NCBI GenBank assembly: GCA_900095095.1
Contig: FMBT01000522.1
Coordinates: 1 to 64,000 of the forward strand
Length of the DNA: 64,000 nucleotides
From: Fragilariopsis cylindrus CCMP1102
Taxonomy: Eukaryota; Bacillariophyta; Bacillariophyceae; Bacillariales; Bacillariaceae
Direction: 5' to 3'
The notes under the pieces are model-generated. The model was not told the DNA's origin. It saw only the letters and a list, made by a program, of their open reading frames with translations, and made no database searches. The position numbers were made by a program, and so were the translations under genes. Positions 17,034 through 47,000 of this stretch are shown here, piece after piece (the first letter of the stretch is position 1; each line of letters opens with the position of its first letter).

Positions 17034-18704
17034 TTACAATGAAGCTACGCGATCATCATTATTCTCGTCGTCATCAGTAGTGTTTGCTGCTTCCGGTGCA
17101 TCCCATGGTAATAATGTACCACTATATCCTTCACTTAAATATGGATTGGTACGTGGACTCATTTGAATTAAAATTTCCGAATCACGATCGACACCAATCA
17201 CTTGTGGTACTGTTCTGGAACAATGTCTGGACCATAATCCGTAGGCATTGGATCCGGTATTTAACAGTAAAATTTCATCCTCTTCTTCTAATTTAGGAAA
17301 TTGTATTTGTTGTTGTAAATAATCACCCGCAAAGCATAATGGACCAGCAATATCCGTTAATGTATGTGGTCGTAATGCGGCAGCACCCATTGGTAAAAAT
17401 TCAATGCCACGTCCATTTCCGGTATAGATATCACGTAAAAACATATCCGCACCTAAATGGATATAACAAACACGTGTCTGATCACGTTGTAAGGTATATT
17501 CAATCTGTGAATAGACATATCCAGAATAAAAATACGACCATTGTCCAAATTCTGTCACTAATTTCATATTATTTTCCCATAAGGCGGGTGCCGCTTTTTT
17601 TAATTCCGAAACATAATATTCCATCCTCGAGGTCTCTTCTTCGGTCGGTGATTCGTGATTTTCTAATATTTCTGGACGTAATCCACCACCAATATCTACA
17701 CCCACAATGGATCGATCCGTGATACCAGCCTCTAATAACATAGTATTGGCTTCGGTGGCAAAATCCACCACCGAGGCAATCGCACCCACCGCCACCGTTA
17801 AATCTTCCATTGCGGTACCCGAATGGACATGTAATTGTGTGACAGGATACTCTCGAATGGCATCTAATATTGCTTGCTTACTACAAATGGGTGTACCAAA
17901 TTTCGATTCATCTCCGGATACTTGAAACATTTCGGGTGTACCAGTATCGACTAAGGGATTAATCCGTAATCCTACGACAAAATTCGGATTTTGGGGAATT
18001 CGATCTAATTCTTCTAAGGAATTCACATTTAATAAGATACCATGCAATTGTGGATTTTCATGACAAATACGTATTTCATGTCGTGTCTTCACCGGTGAAT
18101 CAAACACAATGTTCGGTCCTGGACAACCAGCATTCATGGCTAAATACACTTCCTCCATGGAGGCACATTCTAACCCAAATCCCCATTCGACCAATTGCCG
18201 TAGTATGGCAGGATGTGGATTGGTTTTCACGGCAATGGCATGCAAACAATTCTGATGATCTGTTTTTGTAAATGCTTGTTTTAAATGTTGTAAATATTTT
18301 CGATGCTGTGTCCAGGAATGAAATATTAATGCCGTATCTTCTGGACCAATCATATCTAGTTTCTTGGCTTGTTCAATGGCCCAATAGGCTTCCTCCTTGA
18401 CAGGACTACTTTGTGCAGCAGCAGGGGTGGACGACGACGACGACGACGACATATTTCTTGTTGTTGTTGAAAGAATGCTAGTGGTCGATGCCGAGGGATG
18501 ACGACAACGATCAAAAGAAATGGAGCTACTCTTCGTGGTCGAGGAGGATGCGTTGTTTGTTGATGATAAAGATGACGACGAATATGACGCGAAGGTACGA
18601 GATGCGGTAGAAACAATGCCTTTATGACTATTCTTGGTAATGGCAGTAGCAGTAGTATAGGAATTGATCAAGGCGGCTCTTGTCGTCAATAATTTACTCA
18701 ACAT
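17034..18704 (-). CDS. PLP-dependent ornithine/diaminopimelate-type decarboxylase
   Basis: Fold-type III PLP enzyme that decarboxylates a basic amino acid (ornithine, arginine or diaminopimelate), feeding polyamine or lysine metabolism. 556 residues from the ATG at 18704; the longer frame begins with GTG. The PLP lysine is K160 in A-I-A-V-K-T-N-P-H-P. Other family marks are L-H-V-H-S-G, the phosphate-binding V-D-I-G-G-G-L, E-F-G-Q-W in place of E-P-G-R, G-P-L-C-F-A-G-D (the C-x-x-x-D substrate motif) and N-A-Y-G. Residues 1-100 are Ser/Thr/Arg-rich with few acids and could be a mitochondrial or plastid presequence. Substrate is uncertain: the changed E-F-G-Q-W motif argues against classical diaminopimelate decarboxylase. 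Long-chain polyamines serve silica formation in diatoms, so an ornithine-type role would fit, but that is inference. Confidence 0.85.
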   Translation of the reverse strand: MLSKLLTTRAALINSYTTATAITKNSHKGIVSTASRTFASYSSSSLSSTNNASSSTTKSSSISFDRCRHPSASTTSILSTTTRNMSSSSSSSTPAAAQSSPVKEEAYWAIEQAKKLDMIGPEDTALIFHSWTQHRKYLQHLKQAFTKTDHQNCLHAIAVKTNPHPAILRQLVEWGFGLECASMEEVYLAMNAGCPGPNIVFDSPVKTRHEIRICHENPQLHGILLNVNSLEELDRIPQNPNFVVGLRINPLVDTGTPEMFQVSGDESKFGTPICSKQAILDAIREYPVTQLHVHSGTAMEDLTVAVGAIASVVDFATEANTMLLEAGITDRSIVGVDIGGGLRPEILENHESPTEEETSRMEYYVSELKKAAPALWENNMKLVTEFGQWSYFYSGYVYSQIEYTLQRDQTRVCYIHLGADMFLRDIYTGNGRGIEFLPMGAAALRPHTLTDIAGPLCFAGDYLQQQIQFPKLEEEDEILLLNTGSNAYGLWSRHCSRTVPQVIGVDRDSEILIQMSPRTNPYLSEGYSGTLLPWDAPEAANTTDDDENNDDRVASL

Positions 18705-19850
18705 AATATTTGAGTAAGCTTGCACTTTTCGTTTAGCTTTGCTTGCACTTTTTTCTTGTTGGTTACCGTACAGTAATGATTTCGGCGGTCTCGTATTATT
18801 TAATGCCTTGCTTGTTATTAATGTCTGAGAACGAGGTGAATGATGAGTCGAAATCGAGTCGTCGAGTCAATATTACCGTATGGTGTTCAGAGAAGTATTT
18901 ATTGTACGAAGACAACAATGCTGCCAGCAACAGATTTTTGTGTTTGTGCGCTTATACTGTTTTTCGCGGTAGTATCATTTTTAACACAAAGAATCTGTTG
19001 GTTTTGCAGTGGCGACCCATCCGATGTTGTGTTCTCATATTTTTAAATACTTTTTTTGTATTTCACGATTGTTTACGACCTCGTAAATAATAATATACGA
19101 AGTCGCAAATTGGACGCTACTACTAGTAGAGCTCGAACTGAGATTCTTATCACGATAATTTCACGAAACGAGTGGTCGTAAATGGGTTTCCTCAATTCCA
19201 AGTGTGGAAATTTCATGCTTTTCTCTTATCTTTTGATACTTTTTAGCCTTCTTTCTTCTTCTCCCTCCAACCAATCAATCAGAACAAATAATAAAAGGGC
19301 CTTACCGTACGTGGAAGAAGTCAATCCGAACTTTTCGCGCATTTATTTTATGATCAATGTTACTACGCGCGTTTTCGATATTTGGGGAGGGGTCAACAAG
19401 GGTTAAGGTTTTGTGAGAGATGGCAGGCGATATTTTCAGTTTTTTGCTAGTACGTTGAACGCATCATGAAAAAAGTAGAACACACTTTTTTAGAATGAAG
19501 GAATCGAAATCGAATCAAGAATTTTGTGTTGGAAGAAAACGGTAGATTTTTCTTTAGAACAGAGAGAGAGAAAAAGCAATGATCAATGAGCGAGTCGAGT
19601 CAAGTATCGAATACAATTGGTAGCTAGATTAACAGAATCGTCAGTGTGTGCAGAATCGAATCGAATCAATCTACAAATTAATTGCAGCGTCTCAGTGGTT
19701 TTGTCCTAATCCGAACGTCCAGTATTGCTGAGCTATTAGCTGAAGAAAGATATATATATATATATCTTTAAAAAAAGGAAAAGTCCTGTCTTGACTATAA
19801 CACGTACCAACTGTGCTGTACTGTACTGTACTGTACTGTACTGTACTACG
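18705..19850. promoter_or_regulatory. divergent intergenic region, decarboxylase / J-domain gene
   Basis: 1.15 kb between two divergent start codons. It holds GAGTCGAAATCGAGTCGTCGAGTC at 18845-18868, GAGCGAGTCGAGTCAAG at 19587-19603 and GAATCGAATCGAATCAATC at 19653-19671, a (TA)n run at 19751-19764 and a (CTGTA)n run just before the J-gene ATG. The small frames at 18743-19090 and 19182-19406 lack family features; the second has a hydrophobic start but is not believed. Confidence 0.5.
19813..19847. repeat. (CTGTA)n microsatellite before the J-domain gene start
   Basis: Six or so tandem CTGTA units end four bases before the ATG at 19851, so they lie in the presumed 5' leader. Repeat length could affect the leader or the transcription start, but this is inference. 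Confidence 0.85.
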
Positions 19851-25149: not shown

Positions 25150-25681
25150 CAGGATACAGGTTATAAGGATTTTTTTGCGATTTTGTGCGTGTTAATAAGA
25201 CGCGATAATTTCCATCTAAAAAAAAGTAAAAAAAATAAAAAACTTTGGAAGCTGATAATTATAAAAATACTAGCACAAATTAATACGTATTTGACGCATG
25301 TAAGGATCGAACCAAGGCCTGTCTACCAAGACCGGTGGGGCAGTGCCAACTCAACCACATCAGTAGTTACGTAATGAATATTTTGAGTATATGCATAAAC
25401 TAAAAAATCGCGCAGCATACTGAACGTGATACTTAGCGCAAACCGCGAATTTTCCTACTATGGCTTTTCCGTACATAATTTTTTGGGCTTATTACAGCGT
25501 AGGTACGTCCTATACAACGAAATTTCTGCGTATTTTCACTGAATAAGAAAGCACGTGCCTTTATTCAGAGACGCGCTGTGTCTCAATAGGGGGCTGTAGG
25601 TCCATTTTTTGAGGGAGAAACACCCCCACAAAAATTGACCCCAAAAAGTGGCGCCCCGCGGGCGCCATAACCTGAATCCTG
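25150..25681. mobile_element. 532-bp non-autonomous TTAA-flanked element (piggyBac-type MITE)
   Basis: TTAA stands at 25146-25149 and 25682-25685. The left end is CAGGATACAGGTTAT and the right end, read inverted, is CAGGATTCAGGTTAT: 15-bp terminal repeats with one mismatch. The right end also has a palindrome, GGCGCCCCGCGGGCGCC, at 25650-25666. No long open frame of its own. Deleting the element and one TTAA joins minus-strand codons G-D-E-D-F-S-V to K-I-T-K-E-E-V-A-L-L-K-D, so it appears to have inserted into the transposase frame. It holds tRNA-like promoter boxes (separate entry). Confidence 0.7.
25300..25375 (-). ncRNA. tRNA-like pol III promoter boxes inside the TTAA element
   Basis: On the minus strand TGGTTGAGTTGG (25357-25346) fits the A-box consensus TRGYNNARNNGG, and GGTTCGATCC (25313-25304) fits the B-box core GWTCRANNC. 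The spacing, a little over 30 bases between boxes, fits tRNA genes. The sequence does not fold into a full cloverleaf with paired acceptor and T arms by eye, so it is a tRNA-derived relic or a chance pair. Confidence 0.4.
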
Positions 25682-30743: not shown

Positions 30744-31259
30744 ATCTAAACGGGATTGTAGCAAATGTTTCGAACTATCATCTTCAGCCAAACGAAAAAG
30801 CTACCACATACTAAATATTTCAAAGCAACAAGGAATCTTGGCTTCACCTGACTATTTATAAACGGCTCTCACATAAGGAAACGTTACGATGTAATCGTGC
30901 AGTAATCGTACAGTGATCTAAACGGGATTGTAGCAAATGTTTCGAACTATCATCTTCAGCCAAACGAAAAAGCTACCACATACTAAATATTTCAAAGCAA
31001 CAAGGAATCTTGGCTTCAACAGACTATTTATAAACGGCTCTCACTTAAGGAAACGTTACGATGTAATCGTACAGTAATCGTACAGTAATCTAAACGGGAT
31101 TGTAGCAAATGTTTCGAACTATCATCTTCAGCCAAACGAAAAAGCTACCACATACTAAATATTTCAAAGCAACAAGGAATCTTGGCTTCAACTGACTATT
31201 TATAAACGGCTCTCACATAAGGAAACGCAGTAATCGTACAGTAGTCGTACTGTAATCGT
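30744..31259. repeat. 172-bp tandem repeat, three copies
   Basis: Units starting ATCTAAACGGGATTGTAGC lie at 30744, 30916 and 31088, an exact period of 172 bp. Sequence identity is very high (a few substitutions, such as CACCTGAC, CAACAGAC and CAACTGAC). Each unit has CTCACATAAGGAAACG or CTCACTTAAGGAAACG, the motif also repeated upstream of the 62.1-kb gene; in two units it continues as TTACGATGTAATCGT. This argues for a regulatory rather than a random array. Confidence 0.95.
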
Positions 31260-31677: not shown

Positions 31678-34600
31678 ATGTTCATCCCAACTACTATAAG
31701 ACACGACCGTCTTGAAGACAACATGAAGCAACTACGACAACGTCATGATGACGAGGATGCAGAGGTCGATGATGATCATCAAGAGCATGAACATCGATCG
31801 CGTTGTCCTGAAGGAAGTAATGCGTTGTGTCTATTTCTACTGCTGCTAGTAACAGTATTAGTTGCATATGTAGCTGGTCAGATTTCTTTTTTGCCAACAT
31901 CCTACGTTCAAGTGAAAACATTCATCCCATTATAATTGATAGCACCACTACTACTACTACTACTAGCACCAACGACAACAGTAGTAGTAATGGCAACAAT
32001 AACGGAGGAATGTTTTCCATTACCACCAAAACAAGAGAATTTGTCATGTTATGCAAGGATAGTGTTCGAGAGTTGTTACAAACACATGGCAGTGCACGTG
32101 AATACGAATACGACGGTGTCTATGCTGACGGAAACTATAAGAACGAAATCTCCGACAAAGGCGAAGGATTAAAACGCAAACTACAGGACAAAGAAGGAAA
32201 AGGATCCAAGGGTGATGACTCTTGGGCTGGCTACTACGATGACAAAGGAGGAAAAGGATCCAAGGGTGATGACTCTTGGGGTGGCTACTACGAAGGAGGA
32301 AAAGGAGAAAAAGGAGGAAAAGGATCCAAAGGTTATTACTCATGGAATGGCTACTACGAAGACAAAGGAGGAAAAGGATCCAAGGGTGATGACTCTTGGG
32401 GTGGCTACTACGAAGGAGGGAAAGGAGGAAAAGGAGGAAAAGGAGGAAAAGGATCCAAAGGTTATTACTCATGGAATGGCTACTATGGAGGAGGAAAAGG
32501 AGGAAAAGGCAAAGGAGGCGGAAAGAGTAACGGAAAAGGCAAAGGAGGCGGAAAGAGTAACGGAAAAGGCAAGCCTACATCAAGTCCAACTGATTTTCCA
32601 ACGTTTTTTCCAACCGGGGAGCCCAACTAATTCTCCATCGTTTGCACCAACTGGAAGTCCATTTGAAGAAACATCACTCGCACCAACACTTGAACCAATA
32701 ACAAGACCAACAGATGAACCAACAGATGAACCAACAGATGAACCAACAGATGTACCAACATCACAACCAACACGAACTCCATGTAAGAACGATGATCGTG
32801 GAAAGTGTGAAGACTGTGATACTTTCTTTTACAAAAACAATGAAAAGAAGACTTGTGCTAATTGGGTTAAGAAAAAAAGCAAGAAGCGATGCAAGAAAAA
32901 AAAGGTCAAATTTTTCTGTCCTTCTATTTGCAAACCGAAATGTCAACCAACATCAAGTCCAACTGATTCTCCAAAAACACGAGAACCAACATCACAACCA
33001 ACACAAGAACCAACACCAACTCTACCATGTGAGGACGATGACCGTAAAAAATGTGAAGACTGTGATGATTTCTTTTACAAAAACAATGAACAGAAGACTT
33101 GTGCTAAATGGGTTTCGAAAAAACCCACAAAGCGATGCAAAAATAGAGAGATCCAATTTTTCTGTCCTTCTATTTGCAAGCCGGAATGTCAACCAACACA
33201 AAGTCCAACTGAAACTCCAACATCTGCACCATCGCAACCTTCAACTGAAGATACCACAGATCCACCAACCCCCCCACCAACACAGAGAAGACCAACACCA
33301 GATCCATCTGTGTCCCCAAGTAAAGATCCAAGTTCTAATCCTAGTAATAATCCTACTGGCCTTCTAAGCGCTTTGCCTAGCCTTGTTCCTAGTGGTCTTC
33401 CAAGTGGTGCTCCCAGTTCTGATCCGAGTGCTTTGCCTAGCTCTGTTCCAAGCGCAATTCCTAGTCTCGAACCAACTGGTGATCCGATTGATTCTCCTAG
33501 CTCTGTTCCCAGTTTTGATCCGAGTGCCGCACCAAGTTCTATTCCAAGTCACATACCTAGTTTTGATCCGAGTGGCGCACCAAGTTATATCCCTAGTTCG
33601 GAACCCAGCTTTATGCCAAGTGCTAATCCGACTGGTGATCCAAGTGCTTTGCCTAGCCTTGTTCCTAGTGGTCTTCCAAGTGGTCTTCCAAGTGGTTCTC
33701 CTAGTTCTGATCCAAGTGCTCTGCCTAGCTCTATTCCAAGCACAATTCCAAGTCTTGAACCAACTGGTGGTCCGATTGATTCTCCTAGTTCTGTTCCTAG
33801 TTTTGATCCGAGTGGCACACCAAGTTCTATTCCAAGTCACTTACCTAGTTTTGAACCAAGCGGTGCACCAAGTTATATCCCTAGTTCGGAACCCAGCTTT
33901 ATGCCGAGTGCAAATCCGACTGGTGATCCAAGTGCTTTGCCTAGCTTTGTTCCTAGTAGTCCTCCAAGTGGTGATCCAAGTGGTTCTCCTAGTTCTGATC
34001 CAAGTGCTTTGCCTAGCTCTATTCCAAGCGCAATTCCAAGTCTTATACCAACTGGTGATCCGATTGATTCTCCTAGCTCTATTCCTAGTTTTGATCCTAG
34101 TGGCGCACCAAGTTATACCCCTAGTTCGGAACCCAGCTTTATGCCGAGTGCAAATCCGACTGGTGATCCAAGTGCTTTGCCTAGCCTTGTTCCTAGTGGT
34201 TCTCCAAGTGGTCCTGCAAGTGGTTCTCCTAGTTCTGATCCAAGTGCTTTGCCTAGCTCTGTTCCAAGCGCAATTCCAAGTCTTAAACCAACTAGTGATC
34301 CGATTGATTCTCCTAGCTCTGTTCCTAGTTTTGATCCGAGTGGCGCACCAAGTTATATCCCTAGTTCGGAACCCAGCTTTATGCCGAGTGCAAATCCGAC
34401 TGGTGATCAAAGTGCTTTGCCTAGCCTTGTTCCTAGTGGTCTTCCAAGTGGTGATCCAAGTGGTTCTCCTAGTTCTGATCCAAGTGCTCTGCCTAGCTCT
34501 GTTCCAAGCGCAATTCCAAGTCTTAAACCAACTGGTGATCCGATTGATTCTCCTAGCTCTGTTCCTAGTTTTGATCCTAGTGGTGCACCAAGTTTTAGTC

Positions 34601-37266
34601 TTAAACCAACTGGTGATCCAATTGATTCTCCTAGCTTTGTTCCTAGTTTTGATCCTAGTGGCGCACCAAGTTTTATCCCTAGTTCGGAACCCAGCTTTAT
34701 GCCGAGTGCTAATCCGACTGGTGGTCGAAGTGCTTTGCCTAGCTCTGTTCCTAGTGGTGATCCAAGTGGTTCTCCTAGTTCTGATCCAAGTGCTCTGCCT
34801 AGCTCTGTTCCAAGCGCAATTCCAAGTCTTAAACCAACTGGTGATCCGATTGATTCTCCTAGCTCTGTTCCTAGTTTTGATCCTAGTGGTGCACCAAGTT
34901 TTAGTCTTAAACCAACTGGTGATCCAATTGATTCTCCTAGCTTTGTTCCTAGTTTTGATCCTAGTGGCGCACCAAGTTTTATCCCTAGTTCGGAACCCAG
35001 CTTTATGCCGAGTGCTAATCCGACTGGTGATCAAAGTGCTTTGCCTAGCCTTGTTCCTAGTGGTCTTCCAAGTGGTGATCCAAGTGGTTCTCCTAGTTCT
35101 GATCCAAGTGCTCTGCCTAGCTCTGTTCCAAGCGCAATTCCAAGTCTTAAACCAACTGGTGATCCGATTGATTCTCCTAGCTCTGTTCCTAGTTTTGATC
35201 CTAGTGGTGCACCAAGTTTTAGTCTTAAACCAACTGGTGATCCAATTGATTCTCCTAGCTTTGTTCCTAGTTTTGATCCTAGTGGCGCACCAAGTTTTAT
35301 CCCTAGTTCGGAACCCAGCTTTATGCCAGGTGCTAATCCGACTGGTGATCGAAGTGCTTTGCCTAGCTCTGTTCCTAGTGGTGATCCAAGTGGTTCTCCT
35401 AGTTCTAGACCGAGTGCTAGTTCTATTCCAAGCTCAATTCCAAGTCTTGAACCAACTGGTGATCCAATTGATTCTCCTAGCTCTGTTCCTAGTTTTGATC
35501 CGAGTAGCTCACCAAGTTCTATTCCAAGTCACCTACCTAGATTTGATCCTAGTGGTGTACCAAGTTTTATCCCTAGTTCGGAACCCAGCTTTATGCCGAG
35601 TGCAAATCCGACTGGTGATCGAAGTGCTTTACCTAGCCTTGTTCCTAGTGGTCTTCCAAGTGGTTCTCCTAGTTCTGAACCGAGTGCTAGTTCTGCTCCA
35701 AGCGCAATTCCAAGTCTTAAACCAACTGGTGATCCGATTGATTCTCCTAGCTCTATTCCTAGTTTTGATCCGAGTGGCTCACCAAGTTCTATTCCAAGTC
35801 ACTTACCTAGTTTTGCTCCAAGCGGTGAACCATCATTAATTCCATCTGAAACTCCATCATCTGTACCATCGCAACCTTCGACTGAAGATACCACAGATCC
35901 ACCAACCCCCCCACCAACACAGAGAAGACCAACACCAGAACCATCTACATCCCCAAGTAAGGACCCAAGTGGTACTCCAAGTAGTTCTCCAAGTAGTTCT
36001 CCAATTTCTTCCCCTATTGGCCAATCCTTTACTCCAACTGGTACTCCAACTGGTACTCCAACTGGTACTCCTAGCAAAGGCAAATCAGATAAGAGCAAAT
36101 CCGGCGAGAAGAGCAAAGGCAAATCAGATAAGAGCAAGTCCGGCGAGAAGAGCAAATCCGGCGAGAAGAGCAAAGGCAAATCAGATAAGAGCAAGTCCGG
36201 CGAGAAGAGCAAATCCGGCGAGAAGAGCAAAGGCAAATCAGATAAGAGCAAGTCCGGCGAGAAGAGCAAATCCGGCGAGAAGAGCAAAGGCAAATCAGAT
36301 AAGAGCAAGTCCGGCGAGAAGAGCAAATCCGGCGAGAAGAGCAAAGGCAAATCAGATAAGAGCAAGTCCGGCGAGAAGAGCAAATCCGGCGAGAAGAGCA
36401 AAGGCAACTCAGATAAGAGCAAATCCGGCGAGAAGAGCAAAGGCAAATCAGATAAGAGCAAGTCCGGCGAGAAGAGCAAAGGCAACTCAGATAAGAGCAA
36501 GTCCGGCGAGAAGAGCAAAGGCAAATCAGATAAGAGCAAGTCCGGCGAGAAGAGCAAAGGCAAATCAGATAAGAGCAAGTCCGGCGAGAAGAGCAAATCT
36601 GGCGAGAAGAGCAAAGGCAAATCAGATAAGAGCAAGTCCGGCGAGAAGAGCAAATCCGGCACTTTTACTCCAACTGGTACTCCAACTGGTACTCCATCTG
36701 GTACTCCATCTGGTGATAAGGGTACCGGTTTTTCCTGTATTCAACCTGATAGCTGTAATATTATGGGACCTGGTCAATGCCAACTTGTTAGTAAGGATGC
36801 TGTAGAGGCAAGTTGTGGTCCAGGTGTTCCAGAGGGCTATTACCCTGATCTTACACGTTGTGATGCCTACTGTTTCTGCACGGGGACAAAAGATCCATCA
36901 CGCTATGAAATTGTCAATATTGGATTGGAATGGGATACTTTTCAACAGGGATCGAATATACAATATCTTGGTGGTGAAATCTATGGTAAGAATGGTGCGT
37001 GGGGAACCAATGGCGGTAGCGCTGGTTTTAATTACCAAATGTCTGTAAAAGGTAGAGAGCGCCCACCTGTATGTGGTTCACCTGCATGTCCAAGTGGCTT
37101 TGTAAATAACCGATTATACGGTGCTGAAGGATGTACGAAGTTTTATACCTGTATCAATGGGTTTATTGGTACACCATTAACTCCTTGCGGTCCTGGTACA
37201 TTGTTTGATGAAAGTATCCAAGGTTGCAATTTCTCGGATGTAGTTGATTGTCCGAGTGGGTCCTAG
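31678..37266 (+). CDS. giant membrane-anchored Pro-Ser repeat protein with CBM14-like C-terminus; two apparent frameshifts
   Basis: About 1862 residues in one exon. N-terminal 46 residues are cytosolic-type and acidic, followed by a membrane segment (about 47-70), so a type II anchor with the bulk outside. Next come Lys/Gly-rich repeats with S-W-G-G-Y-Y and S-W-N-G-Y-Y, then two cysteine-rich modules of about 54 residues (C-E-D-C-D, K-K-T-C-A-N-W-V, F-F-C-P-S-I-C-K-P-K-C), resembling diatom ShK-like domains. About 900 residues of P-S-x-x-P-S repeats follow, then about 200 residues of K-G-K-S-D-K-S-K-S-G-E, then a C-terminal Cys-rich domain resembling CBM14 (C-P-S-G-F ... C-T-K-F-Y-T-C ... G-P-G-T-L-F-D-E). 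Frame breaks lie at the A-run 31915-31918 (one missing) and the G-run 32616-32619 (one extra); the corrected total is divisible by three. Probably a cell-wall or surface protein. Confidence 0.75.
32190..32570 (+). repeat. K/G-rich Tyr/Trp repeat region in the Pro-Ser gene
   Basis: Five or so units of G-K-G-S-K-G followed by D-D-S-W-G-G-Y-Y or Y-Y-S-W-N-G-Y-Y, then G-G-K-S-N-G-K-G-K-G repeats. Lys-rich and aromatic-rich segments alternate, which recalls the cingulin proteins of centric-diatom girdle bands (comparison from memory). Confidence 0.8.
33300..36070 (+). repeat. Pro-Ser repeat array with 306-318-bp higher-order copies
   Basis: Codes for degenerate P-S-x-x-P-S units such as D-P-S-A-L-P-S-S-V-P-S-A-I-P-S-L. 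Larger blocks recur: AGTTTTAGTCTTAAACC is found at 34591, 34897 and 35215, giving units of 306 and 318 bp (102 and 106 residues). Nearly identical copies imply recent duplication or gene conversion, and the length is likely to vary between alleles. Confidence 0.9.
36070..36660 (+). repeat. Lys-Ser repeat array (57- and 39-bp units)
   Basis: Units of 57 bases (K-G-K-S-D-K-S-K-S-G-E-K-S-K-S-G-E-K-S) alternate with 39-base units lacking one S-G-E-K-S-K. About 14 units are visible. The Lys and Ser spacing gives many K-x-x-K and S-K-S patterns, as in silaffins and related silica-precipitating proteins. Confidence 0.9.
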
Positions 37267-37560
37267 TTCTGAACCTAATTAGAAAATTTCAATTGAATCC
37301 TCCTCCATTGTTTGATGAAATTAGTCAAATTTGCAATTTCCCGTACGAAGTTGCCTGTCCAAGTCTTGAACCGACTGGTGATCCGAGTGGTGCACCCAGC
37401 TCTGTCCCTAATTTTGATCCAAGTGGCGCACCAAGTTCCATCCGGAGTGAGGTTCCTAGTGCTCTGCCTAGTTTTGCGCCAAGTTCTTTCCTCAGATTGA
37501 ATGTTGCACCATTTCCAGTGGTGCTAGTCCCAAAAGTAATATTACAACTAAAAATCCATA
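37267..37560 (+). pseudogene. second, partial CBM14-end plus Pro-Ser fragment
   Basis: Just after the stop, remnants of the same protein continue: G-P-S-S-E-P-N-like text with a stop, then L-F-D-E-I-S-Q-I-C-N-F-P-Y-E-V-A-C-P-S at about 37300-37360, which parallels L-F-D-E-S-I-Q-G-C-N-F-S-D-V-V-D-C-P-S in the upstream domain. Pro-Ser units (P-S-G-A-P-S-S-V-P-N-F-D-P-S-G-A-P-S-S) follow, up to about 37490, and then a hydrophobic tail. Best read as a partial tandem copy that is now a pseudogene, or an alternative 3' end. Confidence 0.55.
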
Positions 37561-41000: not shown

Positions 41001-44000
41001 TCGAATTTTGTGATGTCACAGAATCCTTCTCGTTTTTCCGCATCCTCATCTTCGCCCTCGGAGAATCGAAAGTAGGCTGATAGTTTATCTTCGTCTGTAT
41101 AGAATGTGTGGAATATAAAAGGAGCAAGAACGAAAATTGAAGAAAACAAGTTGTTAGAAAACTCTTATACTTGTTAAGTAGATTATGTTATCATCGAAAA
41201 CAAGAGAAAATAGAAATTACCTTTCAACCCTTCACCAATTCCATCAACCCAACCATCCTTAAAATCGTCATCGTTTTCGCCTCCAAAGGAATCGTCGTCC
41301 TCGTCATCGTCGTCATTGGAATGCAAAATGCCCGCCAATGTCGAAGCACCTCTTTCCTCGGCACTCTGTGCTCCTTCTTTTCCTAAAATTATCGGACGAG
41401 AACGACCAAACCACTCTTGAATATGATCCAGCATCAGTAAATTCTCTTTCTCACGGTTGGGTCCTTCATTCCATACTAATTTGGATTCCGGAAATTCTTT
41501 TAAGAAATTTTTACCATTAATCTGATCCTTTGCTCCGACCGTGGAGAGTGAGGACTCGCCTATAATACGAGATCGGTGCCTTCCGCTCTTTCTACTCCGT
41601 TGAACGGATGGCGCAAGTGACTGTATCCATTGCTGAGTGAACTCATTAGATGGTGCCTTGCCTTTCTTAAGTTCCGAGGCAAGTGCTGCAAGCGATGCGA
41701 CCGCAGATGGTGCTATTCTCGTTTGAGAATTGTGTTGATAAAGAGAATCGATAACAGGCCAAACATCTTTCGATGAATCCAATTGCAATGCCAAGGATAA
41801 TTGAAGAATAATTGCGTCGGTAGATTGAGTTCCTACAATATCTAGCATTTTGACAGCATCTACAAATCTGCCGTCCTTGATAGCGTCCTCCGCAGATTGT
41901 TGACACAAAGCAGCTACTGGATCGCTTGGACGCGGCAACATGCATGACATGTTGTTGTCAGGAGATTTCACGTATTCTGTTAGGTACTGATCTCCGTTTG
42001 CGATAAGATGTAAATGGGTATCGGTATCGAACGCAGCCTTAATTTTAGCCGTAATTGGTAAGTGTGAGGGTAGTAATCGACTATTCGCCGATCGACCAAA
42101 GTCAACTATTCCTGTGAGTAGCCACGATGCTGCTGGTTTCAGATTATAGTATTCCAGTAGCTCGAAAACCTGTGAAGTCATTCCAGCACCGTAATTTCCG
42201 ATGCCCTCACCCTCGCCATGCGACATGGTAGCAACCTTCCTGCCAAACTTTTCGATGATTGCTCTTAGAAAAGGTTGCGCAGCAGTCTTATTACCTCCTA
42301 AGGCTATGGCATTAGCAACCATCGGCTCCAAAAGTAGAGCAGGTCGGGTAATAGCTAGAGGTAACAAAAATGAGTTACTCGATTGCCCTCGTTCTACTAA
42401 ACGGGTTCCATTGTGGAAAGTATTGTATATGAATCGATCCGGTCTAATAGCAACCAAAAACATTGTATAGTAACTTGGAATTGGAACCGAAATACTAGCG
42501 ATTATGCCAGATCTTCCAGTACGATCTGGTAAACCACTGAGATATCGAACCTTATGGTCGCCATGAGAACAATACGCCACTGTATACGATCCCATCGGTA
42601 CCAAAGATCCAGGAGGTGGAAAATTTTCAATCGCAGCCATGATATTGAGATCCGGTGATAGAATAAAGATTCTTTGCGTCGTAGCAACACCAAATCCTCC
42701 TCTAATAGAGCCTTCACTAGGAAGAGGCACCACAAGAGAAACCTGTTCTCGTTCATCGAGCCACAATACCGGATCCTCTTTTACATTCGGTAACAGTGAA
42801 GACCAAACCGGATCACCTTTTGAAACTAGGTGGCCAGCAATGAGACAACACTTGCTGTTGGATCCGGAGCCTGACGCAACTGCCAGTAAGGAAACTTGGT
42901 CCTGAAAACGAGTCACAACGAATTGCCGAAATTCCACAAAGTCTTCTAGTGATTTCGAATTTTCTTTCTCCATACCCAAAATCGGTCGGTAGGACGTACC
43001 AGGAACTTCCTGCCACGGGGACTTGAGAGTATCACTCGTACCATTTCTTCGCCACAGAGAAACTGAGCCTCCGTTGCGACTAACAATTAGTGCTTGAGGT
43101 ATACTTGTACCTATCGTATCGTTGCTAATAGTTGTACTTGTTCCGTCATCTTCTACCAAAGGGTTTTGATTTGGTAAGAATACCATATCGCGTCCTTCAA
43201 TCAATTGTATTAAACAATACCTCCCATCTTGTGTATCTTTTTCGACTAGTCCAATGTTCTCCGGTTCGGAATTACCATACAACGGACGAAACCAAACAGC
43301 TATATGCTGCGTACAAGTAGCCCTATTATACTTCGATCCCTCCCCTCCTGAGAAAGGATTTCGCGAAATGCGATAGGGGTACAATTTTTGTATCTTTGGT
43401 CGTGTCACAAGCTCGCACATGACGATCGATTGTGATCCCCCCAAAACGATATCGTCGTTTTCCTTTTCTTCTCGAACGCGTGTACTGCTGCTTTTGCTTC
43501 CATCAATAACATCATTATACTTTGATTCCTTTGAATCTCCGGAAAATGTTTGAACCAGCCAATGCCGACGACTAGGTGACGTCCATTCTAACAAAGCTGG
43601 TGCAGACGAATCTGATGACAATGACGACGTAGATTTGTATCGTTCACAATGAAATGTGGTGTATATACTTAAGACTCCCACCCCAGCCGACGTGCTACTA
43701 TCACACCAATAATTTGTTCCACTATTTGTAAGACCGGCGGGAATGCTTCCATTTTGAACATATGGTAAAAAACGAGTGTTGGTGCGATGTTCAATTTCTT
43801 GAACGGTCGTATCGGTGTAATACAAAATACCTCGAGTTCTGTGCAATGTCGATGTTATCAGACCACGGGGTAGATGAGATAATCGTTTTGTCCATTCGTT
43901 TGTATCCCATATATGGAAAGCAAGTTGATCTTCTTCTCCTCTTCCTCCTCCTGAGTTCTTGCTACTTTTGCTCTCTCTATACGCTGGCAATGGGCAAGTT

Positions 44001-47000
44001 ACTAATGCCATTCGAGCATATTCCGAATTTGTCTTCAGTCCAGTCAATAGGACCACCAAGCTAGGAGGTACGTGTGGACCTAAATCTACAAAGGAGCATG
44101 ATGATTTATGATGCATCGATGTCCATTTGGAAAGACAGAATGGTTTGATAGTAAATGTTTGACTAAGAGTTGTCTTTTCCGTCGGTGCCTTGATATCAAC
44201 GTACGATCCTCGCTTGGATGAACTACCGCCACCATTTTTGTCTTGAATCTTTGGTAAGGCTACGTGGTATAAGCAGAGCGCACCTTGAAAGGATGCGGCC
44301 AATAAGAGTAATTGCTTGTATGATGATAAACGGTATGGAACCCATTCCAAATGCGTACAATATCCTACTCCGTCATCCTTACTATCAGTAGTAGCAGTAG
44401 TTTCCGAGGATTGTTTTTCCTTCAGCGATTGATAGTCTTTGGCACCCCACGATGTAGTTGCACACGTCTTCAGCGCCTTTGTAGAATCGAGGCGGCAAAG
44501 TGGGAAGAGAAGTCTTCGGACAGTCTCTGTTGTCTTTCCATTCAACTTTGTGGCCGCCTCATACGTCCATAAACTCAAACTACCGTCGGTCAAAGCGATA
44601 GCCATGTATGGAAGACGCTCTTCACCACTGCTGTCATCGTTATTTTTATCACTGCCACTATCCGGATCTGGAGGACTTTTTGGACAGGTTGCTATTGCCA
44701 TATGTGCAATACGATAATCTGTATTTTTACCGACAAAATTCGCCGACCATGTCTCTCTCACATTTGGTTTACTTAAAAAGACACATGGTCCCTTCGTAGA
44801 GGCACCGGCAACAAAGATACAACCATCACAAACTAATAACGATTCTGTATCGTACGTAAAATCTGATCCACTCGGTGGACTAAGTACCGATTGTAATTGA
44901 ATTGGATTATTTTCACCACCACCACCACCGCGATGACTACTTTCATCGCTGTATCCCCAATGCCAAATAGCAATGACACGTAATACTTCTTTGTTACGAT
45001 CACCTAGTATAGTTAAATCAATTAATGCTGCCACCCGTACACGTTCATACCCATTCTTTGCTTGATGTACACCAGCACGAATAGCCCAAACATTATCAAC
45101 AGCACCAGGTGTGACATGATACTTTTGGACGATTTTGTTGGTCAATTCCTTCGTTAAAATAGATGTACCAGTAATTTGAGTTTGATTTTGAGGATTCCAT
45201 TCTAAAATATCATACGATGATGATGTTGACGACGACGACGATAATGACTGTTTACATACAATTAAATTTCCATTCAATGGATTCGACACAGGTGATGGTA
45301 TTTTATTCTTTTTTATTGATGACGAGGATGATAAAATCACATTCGGACGTGGTGCTATCCATTTGATCTTTATCGATGACGATTCGACTTGATTAATAGG
45401 TGGTTTTCCTATCGGTGATTTGTCATACATTATTTTAGTTGTAGTTGGAAGTGGTTTTGAAAGTGGAGTTGATTTTGATGTTGATGATGATGATGCTGTT
45501 GACTTCGAACCACGAAAGTCGGCGTTAGCAAATGATGGAGGTTCGTAATCCGCACCACCACCACCACCATCGTCATCATCATCTACTGTAAATGGATTAC
45601 TTTTATCTTTTGTAGGTGTCGTTGTGTTCTTGTGGCAGGAAACGATCCAAAATCTGTGGAAAAGCTAGTATCAAACTCCTCAGATTCTAATTCCGCTGCA
45701 CTACTACTCGTAGTAGTGGTGAAATCAGCAGCTCGAGCTACAACTTCTACTCCAAATGGATTACTTTTATCTGTTGTAGGTGTCGTGGTTGTTGTAGTTG
45801 TTCTTGTTGCAGGAAATGATCCAAGATCTGTTGAAAAGCTAGTATCAAACTCCGATTCTAATGCCGCTGCACTGGTACTACTAGTAGTAGTGAAACCAGC
45901 TCGAGCTACTTCTCTATCGTCCTTCGTAGTTTCGTTATTATTATTCTTATTCTTATTCTTGTCATCGACTTGAGCCGAATCATCGAATATACTACTTGTC
46001 GTCGTTACTGAATCGTTGCGAGGAAGAACAGCAGCAGAAGGAGGAGACGATGACGACGATAACCGCAATTCGGCAGATGGACCATCATCATGATCATGAT
46101 CATCATCAATCCGTTGTTGTTGTTGTTGTTGTTGTGGAGATCGCGCCTGTCTATTTTTATTATGGTGGCTCTTGTTCTTGGATCGAGAAGATGATTTACG
46201 ATTACGATTACGATTATTATTATCATCATCCTTTTTGCTGCTGCTGCGATCATCCGAGGCTGCAACTAAAATATCTAATTCATCTTCCGACAAAGAAAGA
46301 TCATCCTCATCCTCATCATCATTATCATCGTTATTATTATTGTTCTTATTATTGTGGTCGTTATCCATCCTATCCGATGATAAAACGGATGTTGTTGTAC
46401 GTTTCTTGTGATGATGATTCGTAGGATGATGATTGGAAGAAGAACTAAGAGATCGATTTTTATGTGGTTGTTTCTTAAGAACAGCGGATTTTGCGGCGGA
46501 GGTTGCTGCTAATAATTCGTCTTCGGAGACAAGACCACCACCACCCCCACTGTTAGTAGTAGAATCCGATGGTGGTTGTTTGGGGGGTGGTGGTGGTGAT
46601 CGTCTCTGATGTGTGGAAGTTCGTCTTCGTGGTTTTGGTAGATTTTTTTCTACTACTTCCGTGGATGTTGCTGTTGATGTTGCTGTTTCTCCACCACCAC
46701 GATACTCTTCACTTCGGTGGTGGTGTCGAGAGGAAGATAGTTTATTACTATTGCTACTACCACCACTGCCACTGCTGCTGCTGTTCTGCGATCGTCGTGG
46801 ATTAGTAGCAGCAGCACCAGCACCACTACCACTTGTACTTACATTACTACTACTAGAAGGAGTAGAAGTACTTCTTACTCTTGATTGAGTCGTCGCGGGG
46901 AAGGAACTACGAGATGGCGGCGGTGGCGGTGGCGGTGATTGAGCTGATACTGATGCTGATGATTTTGTTGGTTTTTTGTCACCACTACTAGTACGACTGA

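Follow-up and report, generated by a model that had tools for sequence, protein, structure and literature searches.

The window analysed here is the stretch of 64,000 nucleotides at C614:1-64000 in the searched Fragilariopsis cylindrus assembly (67.9 Mb, 818 contigs). Its plus strand carries a gene whose product reads as 1862 residues, provided that two one-base differences cancel, through three frames (one from the ATG at 31678, one over 31821-32630 and one over 32173-37266). The gene and its parts are as follows.

31678-37266, plus strand: whole gene, 5589 bases, ATG at 31678, stop at 37264-37266
31678-31818, plus strand: acidic N-terminal tail, presumably cytosolic, 47 aa, pI 4.9 (acidic in 7 of 10 relatives)
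31819-31881, plus strand: the only hydrophobic membrane segment, resembling a signal anchor (KD19 in the allele reaches 2.78; allele alignment)
31882-32174, plus strand: Ser/Thr/Asn linker with a VYADGNY stretch (similar stretch in 6 of 10 relatives)
32175-32183, plus strand: R-K-L, putative R-x-L processing site directly before the Lys-rich region (allele residues 167-169)
32199-32573, plus strand: cingulin-like K-G-S-K / S-W-x-G-Y-Y repeats (TRF; K-x-x-K counts)
32574-32781, plus strand: Pro/Thr linker, Pfam PT repeat in part, with the second one-base difference near 32616
32782-32943, plus strand: Cys module 1, 8 Cys
33028-33189, plus strand: Cys module 2, 8 Cys, starting 82 residues past the start of module 1
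33361-36069, plus strand: Pro-Ser repeat spacer, 903 aa, 28.9% Ser, 24.4% Pro, pI 4.1, differing in length between alleles
36073-36660, plus strand: Lys/Ser/Gly/Glu/Asp repeats, 196 aa, 36.2% Lys, 31.6% Ser, pI 10.1
36718-37263, plus strand: Cys-rich C-terminal domain, 182 aa, 14 Cys
37108-37251, plus strand: CBM_14 (Peritrophin-A), C-x14-C-x5-C-x11-C-x12-C-x7-C

One gene on two haplotypes

The other haplotype, C303, carries an allele at 223607-218751 on the minus strand as a single unbroken frame of 1618 aa, from Met to stop. It shares with the window protein the initial Met, the PSGS end and the order of parts. With this frame intact, the one-protein reading no longer depends on assumed indels, and introns are needless for explaining the frame breaks in the window; many GT-AG joins are formally possible across the first break, but the allele is open without introns, and we rejected that origin. 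The parts between 31678 and 37266 belong to one gene. The preliminary description had proposed a single reading of about 1860 residues after two indels; its coordinates and parts are right, and the observation of one large protein with these parts in this order is confirmed by C303, which encodes all of them in one frame.

Three C303 stretches (28.9 kb) are collinear with window positions 23971-46760; the large blocks are 92.8-99.3% identical, a gap lies at about 25153-25681, and the repeats give many cross-matches. The two one-base length differences of the window copy, both in G runs, lie near 31875, within the membrane segment, and near 32616, and are absent from the C303 allele, while a +4/-1 pair at 33227-33247 nets to a multiple of three. 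The alleles differ in length by 244 residues, chiefly in repeats; difference counts there came from overlapping alignments and were not used. Across four non-repeat pieces summed, with the gapped KGSK piece (0.62) excluded, pN/pS is 0.75 (6 synonymous and 17 non-synonymous differences), so that coding constraint between the alleles is weak and is not demonstrated by this test. Diverged haplotypes are described for the published PacBio assembly of F. cylindrus, which comprises 745 primary (59.7 Mb) and 288 alternate (9.1 Mb) contigs (PMC5634323).

Several other features of the window and the genome were observed along the way. Just upstream of the gene, 30744-31257 holds three tandem copies of a 172-base unit. 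An ornithine/arginine-type decarboxylase (Pfam PF02784 and PF00278) is encoded at 17037-18725 on the minus strand; this family includes enzymes of polyamine synthesis, and long-chain polyamines act in diatom silica formation, but its proximity to the gene at 31678-37266 is probably coincidence. At 41186-45664, also on the minus strand, an open frame spans 1493 codons in the window versus 1957 in the C303 allele; besides a probable intron indel at 41210, there seems to be a frame difference between the haplotypes upstream of 45664. In the assembly, Ice_binding (DUF3494) has 53 matches, counting fragments, and PDB chain 6a8k, an F. cylindrus protein, is matched at 100% over 98 residues.

The N-terminal module, cingulin-like repeats and Cys modules

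The protein has one strongly hydrophobic stretch, in agreement with the TM segment noted earlier. By hydropathy alone, 19-residue windows with KD > 1.4 start only at allele residues 43-58, and the segment covers roughly residues 48-68 of 1618. The first 174 allele residues match 20 places in the genome, 17 of them outside the gene and its allele, and some of these 17 are probably alleles or copies of one another. Ten of the 17 were compared; C52, C425 and C631 were read separately, and C29, C768 and two on C108 were left out. All ten relatives contain a hydrophobic stretch with KD19 of at least 2.1, preceded by an acidic stretch in seven, by a basic one in C459 and by one that is not acidic in C807 and C608. 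An R-x-L motif stands at the corresponding place, directly before a Lys-rich stretch, in 7 of the 10, and is replaced by L-E-L in the other three, which are near-identical to one another. C52, C425 and C631 likewise have R-E-L, and no R-x-L is readable in the C144 relative. An N-terminal module with a membrane segment, usually an acidic tail and usually R-x-L recurs at many loci.

In precursors of silica proteins, R-x-L is a proposed cut site (PMC5647440, PMC5525289, PMC4557024), and its cutting is described as still to be proven (PMC5647440). The motif is short and its role here is unproven, yet its place after the anchor makes permanent membrane anchorage doubtful. The hydrophobic N-terminal segment of the proposed membrane-anchored protein stands, while the permanence of the anchor does not follow, and the R-K-L at 32175-32183 suggests that the anchor is possibly cut away, so that a protein embedded in silica and ending in a chitin-binding part would remain.

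The repeats that follow, with the region KGGKGSKGDDSWGGYY, have the cingulin pattern, which is also found in a separate predicted protein on C61. In published descriptions, cingulins alternate between KXXK regions and regions rich in W/Y (PMC4557024), and CinW2 and CinY2 contain lysine-enriched regions (PMC9650480). That alternation is present here: positions 32199-32603, which include a short Pro/Thr tail, contain 13 K-x-x-K motifs against a shuffle mean of 4.7, a count reached by 0 of 500 shuffles in one run and 1 of 5000 in another, and 14 strict K[SG]2-4K motifs. The K-x-x-K excess and the K/W/Y unit shared with C61 bear out the description of the repeats as cingulin-like. Cingulins also carry a signal peptide, against which the 47-aa acidic tail ahead of the hydrophobic segment argues, on hydropathy only. 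The C61 protein (about 70780-71535) has 323 aa, 13 W-x-G-Y-Y units, 30 strict K[SG]2-4K motifs, a hydrophobic N-terminus (KD19 1.92) and R-L-L at residues 52-54, and is apparently a stand-alone pennate cingulin-like protein.

Two Cys-rich modules had been predicted and are found at 32782-32943 and 33028-33189. They are members of a large unnamed family: searching the genome with the two modules together gives at least 108 matches (counting the gene and its allele, and with several matches per gene; 150 of the 241 candidates were scored), and a regular expression run on related loci collects 50 distinct modules. In an alignment of twenty chosen modules, eight columns are invariant (C, C, V, R, C, C, C, C). 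The modules match no Pfam or NCBIfam family, with three other Pfam rows falling below cut-off; a profile scan of the 20 sequences returned only a weak AID match and a weak DSL match, and no solved-structure chain was matched by the module profile. For ShK in particular, neither the two-module stretch nor any of the 20 module sequences gives a match at E<=10. The last Cys pattern of the module, CPxxCxxxC, resembles ShK and made the initial ShK assignment a reasonable guess, but with no profile support and no solved relative we reject that identity at the level of sequence.

Two related loci, C52 and C144, are probably two alleles of one locus, judging by flanks that are 93% and 88% alike. Both contain K/W/Y repeats, one Cys module and a P-S spacer; their C-terminal ends consist of P-P-T repeats with a short basic tail and lack CBM14. 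In C52, which counted from the first Met is 1673 aa long, the membrane segment and R-E-L are present as well; C144 is split into two long frames. The gene at 31678-37266 is set apart from them by its Lys/Ser tail and CBM14.

The spacer, the Lys/Ser region and the CBM14 end

The Pro-Ser spacer, at 903 aa, has the length of about 900 residues originally estimated. P-S or P-T repeats occur in all six related loci read, so they carry little information on silica. The Lys/Ser region behind it matched only the gene and its allele among 115 scored genome candidates. It had been called silaffin-like, and this holds for one aspect only: the region of about 200 residues is rich in Lys and Ser with dense lysine clusters of the silaffin kind (5 Lys in 12-14 residues), since 160 of 183 windows of 14 residues contain at least 5 Lys. 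Its K-x-x-K arrangement is depleted, with 10 motifs against a shuffle mean of 25.1 and a minimum of 15 in 5000 shuffles, and strict K[SG]2-4K motifs number 0 in 36073-36660. We reject a silaffin-like K-x-x-K character for this region.

At the C-terminus, the predicted CBM14-like domain is upheld by HMM search: CBM_14 (PF01607) scores 32.2 bits against a Pfam curated cut-off of 22.1 (E 1.1e-7), 36 bits on a 61-aa piece (E 7.6e-9) and 34.5 bits in the genome search. The six-Cys spacing, which we take to be the rule for peritrophin-A and applied to the C-terminal domain, is present here and also in 16 of 5000 shuffles of these 182 residues. Within the genome, where the search reads exons unjoined, CBM_14 occurs only in the gene and its allele, as do the first 130 residues of the domain. 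One scan counted two CBM14 stretches in the domain, but its first half alone gives no match. Pattern matches to the domain in viral contigs (4) and in prokaryote genomes (11) were none of them confirmed. CBM_14 is reported as common in diatoms, with 1,395 sequences in the Tara Oceans diatom metatranscriptomes (PMC10134812). Past the stop, at 37299-37490, another frame reads LFDEISQICNFPYEVACPS and then P-S repeats; it is open in the allele too, with a length change there that is a multiple of three. This stretch could be the relic of a second CBM14 end and spacer, or an alternative 3' exon; possible splice joins onto it are present and none is favoured.

The ligand of this domain may be a polysaccharide other than chitin. 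Chitin_synth_2 (PF03142) has 0 matches in the assembly, in a search of exons only and with no eukaryote control, and in a study of five species N-acetylglucosamine was reported in one matrix only, that of T. dubium (PMC3633991). GH18 gives 4 rows in the assembly, 3 of them above cut-off. In F. cylindrus, an annotated chitin synthase allelic pair is reported with expression raised in one phase, and amino sugars are reported in all EPS fractions, their role being described as unclear (PMC5932028).

A candidate silica-polysaccharide tether

In our preferred reading, which we hold at about an even chance, the gene encodes the type II membrane precursor of a frustule (cell-wall) protein that tethers silica to the organic coat. 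It builds on an intact frame with ordered parts, a CBM14 domain, a cingulin-type repeat, and N-terminal and Cys modules that belong to families. The signal anchor would keep the precursor, its acidic tail facing the cytosol, in a membrane of either the silica deposition vesicle or the secretory pathway, and proteolysis at R-x-L may release the lumenal part. The Lys/Trp/Tyr repeats would then join silica or an insoluble protein matrix in the manner of cingulins, as their pattern suggests. The Cys modules would be folded, disulfide-held units, and the stretch of about 900 P-S residues a long disordered spacer that is probably glycosylated. The Lys/Ser stretch would make a further polycationic contact, again with silica or the silica matrix. 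The CBM14 end, to judge from its family, would hold a GlcNAc-containing or other wall polysaccharide. The earlier proposal of a protein bridging silica and chitin or polysaccharide at the membrane keeps its outline, one protein with silica-type and chitin-type parts, but loses ShK and the K-x-x-K tail, and its lasting anchor is doubtful.

Known wall proteins resemble this protein in part. The cingulins CinW and CinY of Thalassiosira pseudonana share its alternating K-x-x-K and W/Y-rich repeats and R-x-L, but in our protein such repeats form one section of a far longer chain that also has an N-terminal signal anchor, Cys modules, a P-S spacer and CBM14. Pleuralins of Cylindrotheca fusiformis, also of the Bacillariaceae, are modular, with Pro-rich and Cys-containing repeats of 90 residues, compared with a period of 82 residues here, and have variable C-terminal domains (PMC4557024); the comparison with the Cys modules is by description, and that description mentions no membrane anchor or CBM14. 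The girdle-band proteins p150 and p130 of T. pseudonana likewise place chitin-binding domains in a wall protein (PMC4557024), but are described as highly acidic, with no cingulin repeat or Lys/Ser tail in that description. Silicanin-1 and the SAPs are single-span silica-vesicle membrane proteins, reported cut, with the lumenal part in silica (PMC5525289, PMC5647440). Unlike our protein, whose one hydrophobic segment is N-terminal and type II-like, they have a signal peptide, a later helix and a cytosolic C-terminal part. T. pseudonana CBM14 chitinases share the CBM_14 domain (PMC7874618), whereas no chitinase domain was matched in the five protein pieces scanned here. Our literature search, of open-licence papers, found no report of such an architecture, which is weak evidence of novelty.

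The same parts could instead make a cell-surface or exopolymer glycoprotein of a sea-ice diatom, lying outside the silica, with a mucin-like P-S stretch and a CBM14 that holds exopolysaccharide. The abundance of the Cys modules, the P-S/P-T repeats that adjoin them in the six loci read and the amino sugars throughout the EPS fractions (PMC5932028) all fit this account, which we regard as unlikely given that cingulin-type K/W/Y repeats and R-x-L are described for silica proteins. If the anchor is never cut, the protein would be a lasting link from silicalemma or plasma membrane to wall polymers. The constancy of the hydrophobic segment among the ten relatives, the acidic tail before it in seven and the three lacking R-x-L favour such a link; we judge it improbable because R-x-L adjoins the Lys-rich region here and because the silica-vesicle membrane proteins silicanin-1 and TpSAP3 are reported cut (PMC5525289, PMC5647440).

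A further alternative takes the one-base differences as real, the window copy being a dead allele, or the gene decaying, with expression from C303 only. Consistent with this are the occurrence of two such differences here versus 0 indels in a neighbouring ORF of 641 aa, the single and apparently intronic indel within 41183-45430, the pN/pS value and the similar splitting of the C144 relative into two frames. Both differences lie in G runs, however, whose length differences are a common long-read consensus error, and the downstream frame is still open for 1697 codons. The PacBio assembly of this species also showed 0 to 135 indels against Sanger fosmids in 13 rows of Table 3, perhaps including haplotype differences (PMC5634323). 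We consider this alternative very improbable. Single-nucleotide differences elsewhere were set aside as proof of assembly error, because the 41210 indel follows a GT, is intron-like and hence uninformative.

Returning to the type II precursor as a silica tether, we put forward tentatively, at a little short of even confidence, that pennate diatoms have a family of such precursors that combine one N-terminal delivery module (usually an acidic cytosolic tail, then a membrane segment, a VYADGNY-like stretch and an R-x-L cut site) with varied wall payloads. Here the payload would end in a chitin-binding domain and form a single-chain silica-polysaccharide tether, and, until cleavage, the tail could sense position on the cytosolic (cytoskeletal) side. 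A protein with an anchor, a cingulin-type region and a carbohydrate-binding end, whose relatives share the N-terminal module, would offer concrete tags and cuts for studying, in a pennate diatom, the attachment of the organic coat to silica and the transfer of pattern information from the cytosol to the silica vesicle.
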